The notes beneath the pieces are model-generated. The model searched no databases, had not been told where the DNA came from, and saw only the letters and a list, made by a program, of their open reading frames with translations. The translations under genes were made by a program, and so were the position numbers. A stretch of DNA of 46,291 nucleotides from Donghicola mangrovi (lineage in GTDB: Bacteria; Pseudomonadota; Alphaproteobacteria; Rhodobacterales; Rhodobacteraceae), in the NCBI RefSeq assembly GCF_013377535.1, contig NZ_JABCJE010000016.1:1-46291 (forward strand), in the 5' to 3' direction. Positions 21,550 to 33,650 of the stretch are shown in pieces (position 1 is the first letter of the stretch; each line of letters opens with the position of its first letter).

Positions 21550-21609
21550 CATTGAATAGCCCCGTGTATTGTGGGCGCCTTCTTCGCTAATTTTGAGGCA
21601 AGGCGGCGA

Positions 21610-21917
21610 TGATGGGCACTGGTTTTTTCGAAGACGAGTTCAAGCATGTCCTTGTCTAGCAAATCACCGAACGGGGCTTTCCCGAGAAGGCGGCTTCGGA
21701 GCGGTTGGGTGTGAGCACGCATTCTCTCTATGCGTGCAAGCGCAAATTTGCGAAGCCGGTGTCAGGCGACAGCGAGAAGGACGCCGAGATCCGTCGTCTG
21801 AAGCGCGAGCTTCTGCGTGTGACAGAGGAGCGGGATATCTTAAAAATGGGCGAGCCAGTGCCCGCCTTAGGTCCGAGGACAATGGCGAGCGCGTATTTCG
21901 CCAGGGATGCAACGTGA
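21610..21917 (+). pseudogene. IS-A copy 2 orfA, with internal stop and 36-bp insertion
   Basis: The start is ATG 21610. The frame reads MMGTGFFEDEFKHVLV and then TAG, a nonsense codon at a different place from copy 1. It continues in frame through QITERGFPEKAASERLGVST and RRLKRELLRVTEERDILK. There an in-frame extra segment (21854-21888, net 36 bp) precedes AYFARDAT and the TGA at 21915-21917. Two independent lesions show this copy is long dead. Confidence 0.82.
21854..21888 (+). repeat. Insertion G (family 2) in IS-A copy 2 orfA
   Basis: A 35-base segment absent from copy 1 reads GCCAGTGCCCGCCTTAGGTC, then CGAGGACAATGGCGA. It aligns with insertion H in IS-B (shared GAGCCA-TG, GCC, GGTCCGAG, GACAATGGCGAG) and is bordered by GGCGA on both sides. 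It can fold with GGTCC facing GGAC and CGCC facing GGCG. It resembles family 1 in size, and weakly in the TGCCCG block. Confidence 0.6.
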
Positions 21918-22000
21918 GATACGCGTTCGTTGCCGAGCATCGCGGACTATTCTCGCTTCGGGCGATGTGCCGCTGCCCGCGGATCCAGCCCAGTGCGCTC
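21914..22000 (+). pseudogene. 5' fragment of IS-A copy 2 orfB
   Basis: It begins at GTG 21914 with MRYAFVAEHRGLFSLRAMCR and stops being recognisable at CPRIQPSA, where IS-B begins at 22001. The corresponding gene in copy 1 is full length apart from its own insertion. This is a truncated transposase fragment with no expected function. Confidence 0.8.
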
Positions 22001-22264
22001 TGAGCTACTCCCCATCTATTGGACAGGATCTGGCGTAAATTAAGCTACTCTTTGCACCTGCAGATCCGGTTTGCTGATATTATTTCTCTGTCAATATACC
22101 AGCGCCGATGGCCTGCCGTCCAAAACAGAATTCGGGCGCCGGTGATTGTAGAAGGTCATCCATTTCCGAATGGCCGCTTTCGTCTCTGATCCGGTTTCCC
22201 AAGCATGCAGGTAGACGCATTCGTATTTCAGGGTGCGCCAGAGCCTCTCGATGAAGATGTTGTC

Positions 22265-22303
22265 CGCTGCCCGGCAATGGTTTGCCTGCAAACCATGAGA
22301 GGG
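22265..22303 (-). repeat. Hairpin insertion E (family 1) in IS-B orfB
   Basis: On the minus strand CCTCTC leads a perfect 9-bp stem ATGGTTTGC / GCAAACCAT with loop AG, followed by TGCCGGGCAGCG. The 39-base segment splits the expected codons between RF-L and DNIF of the transposase. The outer sequences match insertions D and F, while the stem is different but still fully paired. Confidence 0.85.
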
Positions 22304-22327
22304 GAGGAACCGGCCTTTCCCTTCCAT

Positions 22328-22368
22328 TCACTGCCCGGCAGGGCATTGCATAGCAATGTCCCGAGAGG
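22328..22368 (-). repeat. Hairpin insertion D (family 1) in IS-B orfB
   Basis: On the minus strand CCTCTC is followed by GGGACATTGC, loop TAT, GCAATGCCC, then TGCCGGGCAGTGA. The stem pairs with one bulged base. The 41-base segment sits exactly between the expected sequences ending GGATATCC and beginning ATGGA. Only 24 bases of ordinary transposase sequence separate it from insertion E. Confidence 0.85.
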
Positions 22369-22619
22369 GGATATCCGCACGCCAGATCGCCGCAACCGAT
22401 CCGTCCAGGCAAAGGATGTGAACTGGGATCCTTGATCGGTATTCATTATCTCGGGCGGCCCGAACTTGTGGATGGCCTCGTTCAGCGCGTCAACACAGAA
22501 GTCCGCCTCCAGTGTGTTCGAGATCCGCCAAGACAGAACCTTGCGGGTATGCCAGTCCATGATCGCCACCAGGTAGAGGAACCCGCGCCGCATGGGCAGA
22601 TAGGTGATGTCTGAATACC

Positions 22620-22660
22620 CATTGCCCGTCAGGGTCATGCGCAGCATGATCCCGAGAGGG
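22620..22660 (-). repeat. Hairpin insertion F (family 1) in IS-B orfB
   Basis: On the minus strand CCCTCTC is followed by GGGATCATGC, loop TGC, GCATGACCC, then TGACGGGCAATG. The stem pairs with one bulged base. The 41-base segment lies between the codons for NQV and the YSDIT block and introduces a frameshift and a TGA. The tail differs from D and E at a few positions. Confidence 0.82.
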
Positions 22661-23072
22661 AGACCTGGTTTGGGCGTTCTACCCGCAGACCTCTGAGCAG
22701 GTAGGGATAGGTTTTGTGGCCCTTCGCCGAACTACTCGTGTTGGGCTTCTGGTAAATCGGCATCAAGCCCATCAGCCGCATTAGTCGCCGGATGCGCTTC
22801 TCGTTCACCATCTGGCCGTCATTGCGCAGATGCCAGGTCATCTGCCGAACGCCGAAGATTGGGGTCTCCAAGAACGGCTCGTCGATCTGCCGCATCAGGT
22901 CGAGGTTCTGTTCGGTCTCGCCCTTCGACTCGTAGTAATAGGATGAGCGTACGATCGACAGCAGCTTGCATTGCGGGCCGATGGACAAGTTCGGATGGTT
23001 CGGCTCGATCATGTCACGCCTCACTTCCCTCCCCAAGGCTTCAGCTTTCGCTCCAAGAAGAATTGGCCACCG

Positions 23073-23115
23073 TCTCGCCATTGTCTCTCGGACCAATGGC
23101 GTCCCAATGGCTCGA
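23073..23115 (-). repeat. Insertion H (family 2) in IS-B orfA
   Basis: Read on the minus strand the segment holds GAGCCATTGGGACGCCATTG, then GTCCGAGAGACAATGGCGAG. CGCCATTG and CAATGGCG form a perfect 8-bp stem around a 10-base loop. The segment replaces about 5 expected bases near the end of orfA (after KIG). It aligns closely with insertion G in IS-A copy 2, and both sit at comparable positions near the orfA C terminus. Confidence 0.65.
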
Positions 23116-23244
23116 TCCCCAATCTTGGCGTGAAGTTCCTTCACCTGCTCTGCGTCAATCGCAGCCTTCTTGCTGCTCCCGTGCTCGAACACGCCAGAAG
23201 CGCCTTTGAGTAGAGCGCGTTTCCACTGATGGATCATTAGTCGC

Positions 23245-23283
23245 CTCTCGGTGTTTGCTTCGCAATCACCTGCCGGTAACAGA
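23245..23283 (+). repeat. Hairpin insertion C (family 1) in IS-B orfA
   Basis: On the plus strand CCTCTC leads stem GGTGTTTGC, loop TTC, stem GCAATCACC (one mismatch), then TGCCGGTAACAG. It is 39 bases long and adds exactly 13 codons in frame to orfA between the codons for RF-xx and MIHQW. Its orientation relative to the IS is opposite to insertions D, E and F. The tail is almost identical to that of insertion A in IS-A copy 1. Confidence 0.83.
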
Positions 23284-23470
23284 TTCACACAAAACCGGCT
23301 CGCAAGCTCGGCGGCCGTCTCCTCACCCTTTAGGGCTTCCAGCGCGACCTTCGCCTTGAACTCAGGCGCATGCTGTTTCCGCTTCGACATCTCTGATCTC
23401 CTTCTCGTCGAAGACTAGCAGACTGCAAGTAGTAGCTTATGTCTGTGTCCGAATTTCGGTGGGCAGCTCA

Positions 23471-23794
23471 GTCCTGATTCACTCGGATAGCCATACAATT
23501 GGTGCCCTTCTAAGAGTCACGCGGCGGTCTGTGACCGATTGATCTGCTTCTGGCGATGCATGATGATGCCGAAGAGGTAATTGCCAGGATAACGCCGTTG
23601 CCGAGAGCTTCTTCAACTCGCTCAAGCGCGAGCGGATCAGTCGGCGAACCTACCGAACGCGCGCAGAAGCAAGGCTGGATGTGTTCGATTACATTGAGAT
23701 GTTCTACAACCCGAAACGCCAGAACGCACACAATGGAATGCTGTCACCAATTGAGTTCGAACGGCAGCAGAAACTGAACAACAAAGGCGTCTAA
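23471..23794 (+). pseudogene. 3' fragment of IS-A copy 2 orfB
   Basis: It starts with bases coding VLIHSDS-like sequence (GTCCTGATTCACTCGG), equivalent to position 1799 of copy 1. About 90 bases to 23580 no longer align. It becomes clear again at AVAESFFNSLKRERISRRTY-like sequence and ends YNPKRQNAHNGMLSPIEFER, then QQKLNNKGV and TAA at 23792-23794. It retains the last catalytic Glu but not the rest of the core. Confidence 0.78.
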
Positions 23795-23834
23795 GAAACG
23801 CGGTGCTATTCAGCTACATAAGGAATGACTTGCT

Positions 23835-32615: not shown

Positions 32616-33650
32616 TTAGCGATGTCGGCCCCGTGCAGAGGTTTTCTTGTTCCCGCGTGCGCCGGTCACGACGGGCGTATTCTGCTGGTTCTCTTCGCGC
32701 AGTTTGCTCCACCGAGACAGGCGCGCGGGATCCAGCGTGCCTGCCTTGACTGCGGCTTGGACCGCGCATCCGGGTTCATGCTGGTGGGTGCAATCGCGAA
32801 ACCGGCAATCGGGGGCCAGTTCGGTGATCTCGGCAAACAGCTCATCTAGGCCGGTCGACAGATCGCTTACGTGGAGGGTCCGCATCCCGGGGGTGTCGAT
32901 GACCCACGCGCCGCCTTCGATTGTGTGCAACGAGCGGGAGGTCGTGGTGTGCCGCCCTTTCGCGTCATCTTCGCGGATGCTGCCGGTTGCCTGCGCATCC
33001 TCTTCTGATTTGCGGGCCAACGTGTTGAGCAGCGTTGACTTGCCCACGCCCGACGATCCGATCAGCGCCACGGTCTGTCCGGCACTGCACCAAGGGGCGA
33101 GGGCGGCGATCGCATCCTGTGACTTTCCGTTGATCGGGACTACTTGCAACCCCCGTTGCAATCCCGCGGCTGTGCGTTCGAAGGCGGTCACATCGGGGGT
33201 CTGGTCCACCTTGGTCAAGACGATCACGGCACCGGTTCCGGCTTCGTTGGTCAGGGCCAGATAACGCTCCAGTCGGGCCGGATTGAAATCGTCATTGCAG
33301 GAGGTGACGATGAACACCGTATCCACGTTGGCTGCGATCAGTTGCAGCTGGCGCGCGCCGACCGTCTGACGTTGAAGCAGGGAATGACGCTCTAGCAGGC
33401 GGGAAATCTGGAGGCCGTCAGGATCGGCTAGAACCCAGTCCCCGACAGCGAAATTGGCCGTCGTCATCCCCGCAGGCAGGCTGAGTTTGGCGCGCCCGCC
33501 CACGCGAAATGCCGTCATCGTCGAGCGATGCACGGCCGCGATGCGCATGGCCTCAAGGCCTGCGTCATCGGGGCCGAGTTGGTCTTGCAGGACAGGCGTC
33601 CAGCCAAGCGCATGCAATGCTGCGGGGATATGAGGGTCTTGCTTTTCCAC
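32616..33650 (-). CDS. rsgA: Ribosome small-subunit-dependent GTPase A
   Basis: RsgA (YjeQ) is a circularly permuted GTPase that helps mature the 30S subunit. The 344-residue protein shows an OB-fold N terminus, then G4 (VIVLTKVD) before G1 (GSSGVGKSTLLNTL), G2 (GRHTTTSRSL) and G3 (VIDTPGMRTL). A zinc-binding end follows (CRFRDCTHQHEPGCAV). This order is diagnostic. It starts 27 bases after the UPF0303 gene and probably shares its transcript. It is a chromosomal housekeeping-type gene. Confidence 0.94.
   Translation of the reverse strand: MEKQDPHIPAALHALGWTPVLQDQLGPDDAGLEAMRIAAVHRSTMTAFRVGGRAKLSLPAGMTTANFAVGDWVLADPDGLQISRLLERHSLLQRQTVGARQLQLIAANVDTVFIVTSCNDDFNPARLERYLALTNEAGTGAVIVLTKVDQTPDVTAFERTAAGLQRGLQVVPINGKSQDAIAALAPWCSAGQTVALIGSSGVGKSTLLNTLARKSEEDAQATGSIREDDAKGRHTTTSRSLHTIEGGAWVIDTPGMRTLHVSDLSTGLDELFAEITELAPDCRFRDCTHQHEPGCAVQAAVKAGTLDPARLSRWSKLREENQQNTPVVTGARGNKKTSARGRHR

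Follow-up and report, generated by a model that had tools for sequence, protein, structure and literature searches.

Variable-stem palindromes inserted in insertion sequences of Rhodobacteraceae: a probable family of non-autonomous mobile elements

Why does an otherwise recognizable IS3 transposase gene in Donghicola mangrovi contain four extra segments of about 40 bp, each with conserved ends and with arms that differ between copies and still pair? The segments lie in the window analyzed here, a whole stretch of 46,291 nt (contig 8 of the 4.3-Mb genome), and an earlier note made from its sequence had offered two readings, a miniature mobile hairpin or an element processed or bypassed at the RNA level. 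We find that the observation is confirmed and that the interpretation is partly supported. Each compared copy is a clean insertion of approximately 37–45 bp, typically between a C and a GAYG-like word, in either orientation. Judged from sequence comparisons, these hairpins are probably non-autonomous mobile palindromic DNA elements that are moved in trans and live largely in insertion sequences (IS).

Hairpin insertions in IS-B

The host element in the window, IS-B, is a minus-strand IS3-family element with orfA and orfB at about 22060–23430 (22060–23430 as aligned). Two intact plasmid relatives (L146 and L147), which share approximately 79% identity with it and carry an IS3 family transposase annotation, differ from it by large gaps only at the four named segments and at a fifth insert. 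The four segments are thus not conserved parts of the transposase gene: relatives exist without them, and some carry another hairpin at the same nucleotide. All four are real, are built to the plan that the earlier note described and are clean insertions in comparison with intact IS3 relatives. We set their boundaries by alignment with hairpin-free relatives, base count and a covariance model. The coordinates given previously are right within two bases, with copy 2 not at 22328–22368 and copy 4 not at 23245–23283.

Copy 1 (39 bp, minus strand, 22265–22303; arms ATGGTTTGC and GCAAACCAT) lies in the orfB part of IS-B and matches the covariance model at E 4.2e-7; alignment with empty relatives gives its empty site as TTCCTC^GACAAC, which a different hairpin occupies in Sulfitobacter D7 (L149). 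For copy 2 (41 bp, minus strand, 22329–22369; arms GGGACATTGC and GCAATGCCC; E 2.8e-10), the same alignment gives ATATC^GATGG, and again a different hairpin occupies the site in Phaeobacter inhibens p1 (L148). Copy 3 (41 bp, minus strand, 22620–22660; arms GGGATCATGC and GCATGACCC, tail TGACGGGCAATG; E 1.8e-7) was placed in the same way at GGTCT^GGTG, a site filled by other hairpins in L116 and L198. Copy 4 (38 bp, plus strand, 23244–23281; tail TGCCGGTAACA) is antisense to the transposase gene, and its insertion is repeated in two further IS3 copies of the same genome (G000:C1 and G000:C23); the covariance model matches 23243–23282 at E 3.5e-4, with boundaries off by one base from the alignment. 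The conserved ends and pairing arms hold in all four, with one T-T mismatch in copy 4 by eye. All four sites are empty in Pseudosulfitobacter pSMR1-6 and Thioclava pTElox9, and pSMR1-6 has the three sequences above plus CATC^CGACG with zero duplicated bases. A fifth palindromic insertion (38 bp, GCCATTG...CAATGGC, approximate boundaries 23072–23109, no strand assigned) at the orfA/orfB junction was not in the earlier list; it does not have the family ends and is missing from intact relatives.

Apart from these inserts, comparison of frames shows two lesions in IS-B, a stop codon and a 1-bp deletion. The ATG with which the downstream frame (ORF 22228–22647) starts is supplied by copy 3 and overlaps a TGA (ATGA), so that a possible restart site can arise from a hairpin. 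To judge by frames, IS-B itself is apparently nested in a second, disrupted IS3 (21600–22003 and 23590–23795), kin of the IS3 at 841–2113, with an orfA-like part on one side of IS-B and the orfB end on the other.

Shape, distribution and target of the family

The family layout is CCCTCTC, two arms of variable sequence with a loop, and a 12-nt tail TGCCGGGCARYG, over a total of about 37–45 bp; the alignment starts with CCCTCTC and finishes with GCARYG. Forms of 41–43 nt have one additional base, mostly A, in the 5′ arm that is absent from those of 37–40 nt. Among 43 distinct sequences, all nine stem pairs show changes on both sides, and 97.4% of the cells in these pairs are paired versus a shuffled mean of 69.8%. 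Only one of five covariation measures, the number of further pair types, was equalled by shuffles (19 of 500). Of the 43, 39 have G-C as the first stem pair and 38 as the second. The alignment leaves out seven chance loci (L021, L023, L026, L032, L101, L120 and L124) and L118, and 14 of 57 hairpins (nine of 37 nt and five of 38 nt) did not enter the pair count, as MAFFT had misplaced their gaps. The 43 sequences had come through a folding filter; without such a filter, 127 of 135 pattern matches chosen regardless of pairing fold at −5 kcal/mol or below, versus 34.1 expected with shuffled interiors. Stem states that differ on two sides (77 cells) far outnumber one-sided G-U states (four cells), which points to maintenance of pairing at the DNA level; the stem changes would fit selection on DNA pairing.

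Further copies are found in the genome of the window and in others, contrary to an isolated set of four. The exact pattern CCTCTCGGN{14,20}CCTGCCGGGCA occurs in 39 of 198 Rhodobacteraceae genomes (D. mangrovi included), while the reversed control occurs in none of the 198. In a species-genome collection at least 120 stretches match, mostly from Rhodobacteraceae or Rhodobacterales by their titles; among the matches listed, a small number from other alphaproteobacteria are apparently genuine, and seven from elsewhere were judged chance. The covariance model (R1) has nine matches in the genome of the window, 29, 10, 16 and 40 in four others and none in a congener, and class-wide it matches nine of 289 genomes, six of them outside Rhodobacteraceae. 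A consensus match is present in 102 plasmid records; in the 60 rows listed, 56 have no annotated gene under the hairpin in a gene table that excludes pseudogenes, three have a transposase and one is an unannotated record. A phage origin was rejected: 50,697 phage records gave a single partial match, and viral contigs gave 13 stretches. Rfam gave no gathering matches in the window, L148, L152, L177 or L092, and in 11 other loci just one tRNA and a sub-threshold isrB overlapping the L189 hairpin (27.2 bits, cut-off 35, E 0.34).

Hairpins are diverse inside one genome, with no single amplifying type. Types tend to recur within one site, and 20 of 171 hairpin cores were found at two or more sites (11 in the case of the commonest), which weakens the idea of one hairpin type for one target. 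The 288 collected rows, in which some places were fetched twice and a few are chance matches, reduce to 175 distinct sites after merging similar flanks. For grouping flanks, greedy assignment took the place of single-linkage clustering, which merged nearly all of them. The target word, counted without the seven chance loci, which are outside the clade, is C^GAYG (−1 C 0.74, +1 G 0.74, +2 A 0.62, +3 T/C 0.80, +4 G 0.55), with little past +5, and several target sites hold different hairpins in different genomes. Relative to the gene, 76 copies are sense and 61 antisense; these are 137 of 198 copies, in families with a recognized coding frame, the 198 still including most of the seven chance loci. 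This use of either orientation argues against RNA-level splicing or bypass and, together with the stem states above, counts against the second reading of the earlier note.

The insertions are clean in comparison with empty sites, with no target-site duplication, in IS-B, in an IS5 of Dinoroseobacter shibae and in an IS3 with four hairpins; these junctions in three IS lack the duplication expected of a MITE of a DDE transposon. At one IS3-group site, five rows bear hairpins with the near-identical stem GGGACATCGCCRTGCGATGCCC, that of L268 being a few bases different. In a tree of 29 IS3 rows (five of 34 were omitted as duplicates or fragments), the five are scattered, requiring five changes of which at least three are forced by well-supported branches. 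The site was seen to be empty in 23 of the 24 rows that remain, the other one being L291. The scattered positions indicate that insertion recurred at that site, for which vertical inheritance is rejected by the tree. CATGGG stands beside the insert in four of the five hairpin rows versus one of the 24 hairpin-free rows listed; this flank may reflect a preferred target or, alternatively, may be left by conversion, as has been proposed for GC42 in yeast (PMC4478555). Empty sites, the 175 distinct host sites, recurrent insertion and the further covariance-model copies all favor the mobile hairpin.

Host genes and competing explanations

Hairpins are found mostly in transposase genes of IS3, IS5, IS21, IS66, IS91, IS110 and IS256, names that are our reading of Pfam family names (rve with HTH_21, DDE_Tnp_1, DUF4096, IS66, IS110, Mutator, IstB, Mu C-terminal and Y2_Tnp). 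Of 40 stop-free stretches beside hairpins, 20 had a transposase or integrase family above its cut-off (batches of 4/10, 8/10, 7/10 and, in a set picked as doubtful, 1/10). In the genome of the window, 10 of 11 hairpins have a transposase within 200 bp, the eleventh (window position 32956) being a chance match. The same holds for 30 of 34 in genome G067, 30 of 30 in G013 and eight of nine in G035, with 24 of the 30 in G013 belonging to six copies of one IS and six of those in G035 to three copies of one IS. A recognizable transposase is near just one of 13 hairpins in G108 and near five of 12 in a mixed set drawn from five further genomes. Six G108 hairpins occupy one fixed position of an intergenic repeat, TTCATCTTGCnAnnnAAACTCCCGCC^GGAGGC, and a seventh a variant of it (L188); the repeat is also found empty in the same genome (L326 and L341). 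It was called intergenic from its frames and, for L035 and L055, also from Pfam.

Several other arrangements were seen around these loci. An intergenic repeat beginning TTCATCTTGCnAnnnAAACTC (L326, L341, L317–L346) is present in 16 of 295 Rhodobacteraceae genomes in up to 37 copies and is followed by different palindromes; its sequence strings had no match in the literature searched. Near the DSTG motif of IS5, L052 and L106 contain a second type of small G+C-rich palindromic insert, GACCGTGGC...GCCGCGAAAG. Five different hairpins fall within about 950 bp of transposase remnants at L092:3701–4645. At L005:2852–2892 and L164, hairpins lie at apparent deletion junctions in IS256 and IS5 transposase genes; adjacent deletion via an active 3′ end was considered for these and set aside, as recombination between two hairpins fits equally well.

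Some hairpin-bearing IS are present in multiple copies. G013 contains six copies of an IS3 that bears four hairpins, two per orientation; the copies are 98.6–99.9% identical and lie at six places, three of them flanked by a 3-bp duplication made by the IS; a search of G013 DNA found no full-length hairpin-free copy, fragments only. Outside the hairpins, the compared frames of all six have no stop or indel. Compared with an intact relative, four of the six have 141 synonymous and 36 non-synonymous codon changes and the others 137/39 and 143/35, against 139/35 in the comparable hairpin-free SC52. The IS in P. inhibens p1 and Sulfitobacter D7 likewise have no stop or internal indel apart from hairpins. 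In D. shibae, three IS5 copies on pDSHI04 are identical across 919 bp, each with two hairpins plus a stop codon. Related hairpin-free copies exist there, the two comparable ones without a lesion, and a helper transposase acting in trans is therefore the simplest account in that genome. Altogether, four of seven hairpin-bearing IS compared (those of the window, D. shibae, Leisingera and P. gallaeciensis) have a stop or frameshift, with L178 left out of the frame comparison as it looks misoriented. The inserts in this comparison range in length from 38 to 45 irrespective of frame. For the G013 IS3, a lost helper, precise removal of the hairpins or skipping at the expression level is possible.

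Skipping of this kind, by RNA processing or by ribosomal bypass as in T4 gene 60 and the mitochondrial byp elements, would leave the transposase genes working. It could accommodate the frame-breaking IS3 that reached six places in G013, where no full-length hairpin-free copy was found, with otherwise undamaged frames and a synonymous excess like that of SC52, as well as the undamaged IS of P. inhibens p1 and Sulfitobacter D7. Yet both orientations are about equally frequent, even inside the G013 IS3, insert lengths ignore the frame, G-U stem states are rare, four of the seven IS have additional lesions and some copies are intergenic, which together make skipping quite improbable. Rare insertion followed by passive copying, through IS transposition and recombination between copies with no activity now, is slightly easier to credit, though still unlikely. 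Multi-copy IS share the same hairpin sets, hairpin types tend to recur per site and one G108 repeat position is fixed, all in its favor; it sits poorly with 175 distinct sites across many unrelated IS families, with different hairpins at one site (for example, window copy 1 versus Sulfitobacter D7) and with the five same-site insertions of one type scattered on the IS tree, although conversion over short tracts from one IS copy to another could produce a similar pattern.

A defence by the host or by a rival element that writes hairpins into transposases to disable them would explain why they cluster in transposase genes, of at least seven families, and why some sites, as judged by eye, lie near conserved catalytic motifs. 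Against it, the G108 copies are intergenic, hairpin-laden IS still transposed, and the target, a short word of DNA that serves in both orientations, is not specific to transposases, so we regard this as very improbable. Even less credible is a classical REP family moved by a RAYT, an IS200/IS605-like Y1 transposase. Size, a single hairpin with an unpaired tail, an adjoining preferred tetranucleotide and the lack of target duplication all resemble such a family, and one hairpin cut by a contig start (L145:1–33) lies about 270 bases from a Y1_Tnp match, on one side only. In contrast, the hairpins have no GTAG or CGTC end and are mostly inside IS genes, not extragenic; Y1_Tnp was found in two of 10 hairpin-bearing genomes (absent from that of the window and from seven of the nine others), and the Y1 gene of L144 has no flanking hairpins. 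The two Y1 loci inspected gave no convincing link to the hairpins. The truncated L145 hairpin sits inside an apparent IS630-type transposase.

With an IS91/Helitron-like (Y2 HUH) mini-element in view, Y2_Tnp was detected in five of 12 genomes with and without hairpins and not in that of the window; a scan of nine Y2 loci gave no matching ends, and the element tail was seen just within hairpins in two loci, plus one weak match in L264. As neither Y1 nor Y2 tracks the hairpins, a mobile palindrome would be moved in trans by another enzyme. In leaving no duplication, acting on a folded substrate, using a short target word and accepting both orientations, the process would resemble single-strand (HUH) transposition. 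The mobile palindrome could work as follows. The element would be recognized as a folded single DNA strand or a cruciform, a step that we hold tentatively, and an enzyme supplied in trans would cut and join it, leaving no duplication. Hairpins travel when the host IS transposes, and a hairpin inside an IS would be carried to new copies and new genomes; the multicopy, dispensable and horizontally mobile nature of IS may in this way produce the bias towards them. Counting against the mobile palindrome are the lack of a mobilizing gene among the two transposase families searched (Y1 and Y2), an IS link that is not absolute, given G108 and the mixed set, and the diversity of hairpins per genome. 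As an extension of this account, one enzyme might both insert and precisely remove folded 40-base palindromes, making the hairpins reversible switches or passengers on transposases. Hairpin-laden IS would stay alive through removal in DNA or, less likely, through skipping in expression. That would explain how the four-hairpin IS3 came to be at six places with undamaged frames and with no full-length hairpin-free copy found, and we consider it unlikely, if less so than passive copying.

Significance and comparison with known repeats

If mobile, these hairpins would be a layer of mobile DNA inside other mobile DNA, too small to code and located mostly in transposase genes, that ranges across Rhodobacteraceae and into other alphaproteobacterial families. 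They account for a class of broken transposase genes and are relevant to a long-standing question, the means by which short palindromic repeats move without a dedicated transposase. The precise junctions, the target word and their presence in D. shibae DFL 12 should make the mobilizing enzyme findable. Literature searches by keyword, analogue and sequence string, with a coverage that lacks many journals, found no description of the element; the string search returned one chance 12-mer in a LAT4 paper. A term search of a MITE review (PMC10969869) gave no match in its text, ‘REP’ occurring twice, in the reference list only.

Among described repeats, the relevant sections of Di Nocera et al. (2013, PMC3733652) present CGTC REPs as 20–40-bp palindromes with variable stems, commonest in alphaproteobacteria and some of them intragenic, with no known dedicated transposase and few, fortuitous associations with transposase genes. 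They begin with CGTC (or TGTC or CCTC), have 8–9-bp stems that start from A-T pairs, mostly have CCA tails and mostly form head-to-head dimers (PMC3733652). The hairpins here are likewise small palindromes with variable stems, and their opposite-strand flank is often CATC or CGTC. Unlike CGTC REPs, they have the ends CCCTCTC and TGCCGGGCARYG, their stems start G-G and transposase genes are their main home; the CGTC terminus is absent, and the C(A/G)TC-like word lies outside the element, in the target. GTAG REPs with their RAYTs are also non-autonomous palindromes, proposed to be moved by Y1 enzymes, whereas GTAG is absent from the consensus here. Rickettsia palindromic elements are palindromes in bacterial genes too, but they have other sequences and no tie to IS is mentioned in the sections on them; RPE-4 and RPE-6 are CGTC repeats and RPE-1 is longer (PMC3733652). 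The GC42 clusters of yeast mitochondria, as the corresponding parts of Wu and Hao (2015, PMC4478555) describe them, are mobile, 42 nt long and constrained in the stem. As with GC42, filled sites and empty ones do not have the same bases next to the insertion point; unlike the hairpins here, GC42 is mitochondrial, and those parts of the paper mention no link to transposase genes (PMC4478555). In its workings the element is like REPs and mitochondrial GC clusters, yet by sequence it is neither a GTAG nor a CGTC REP.
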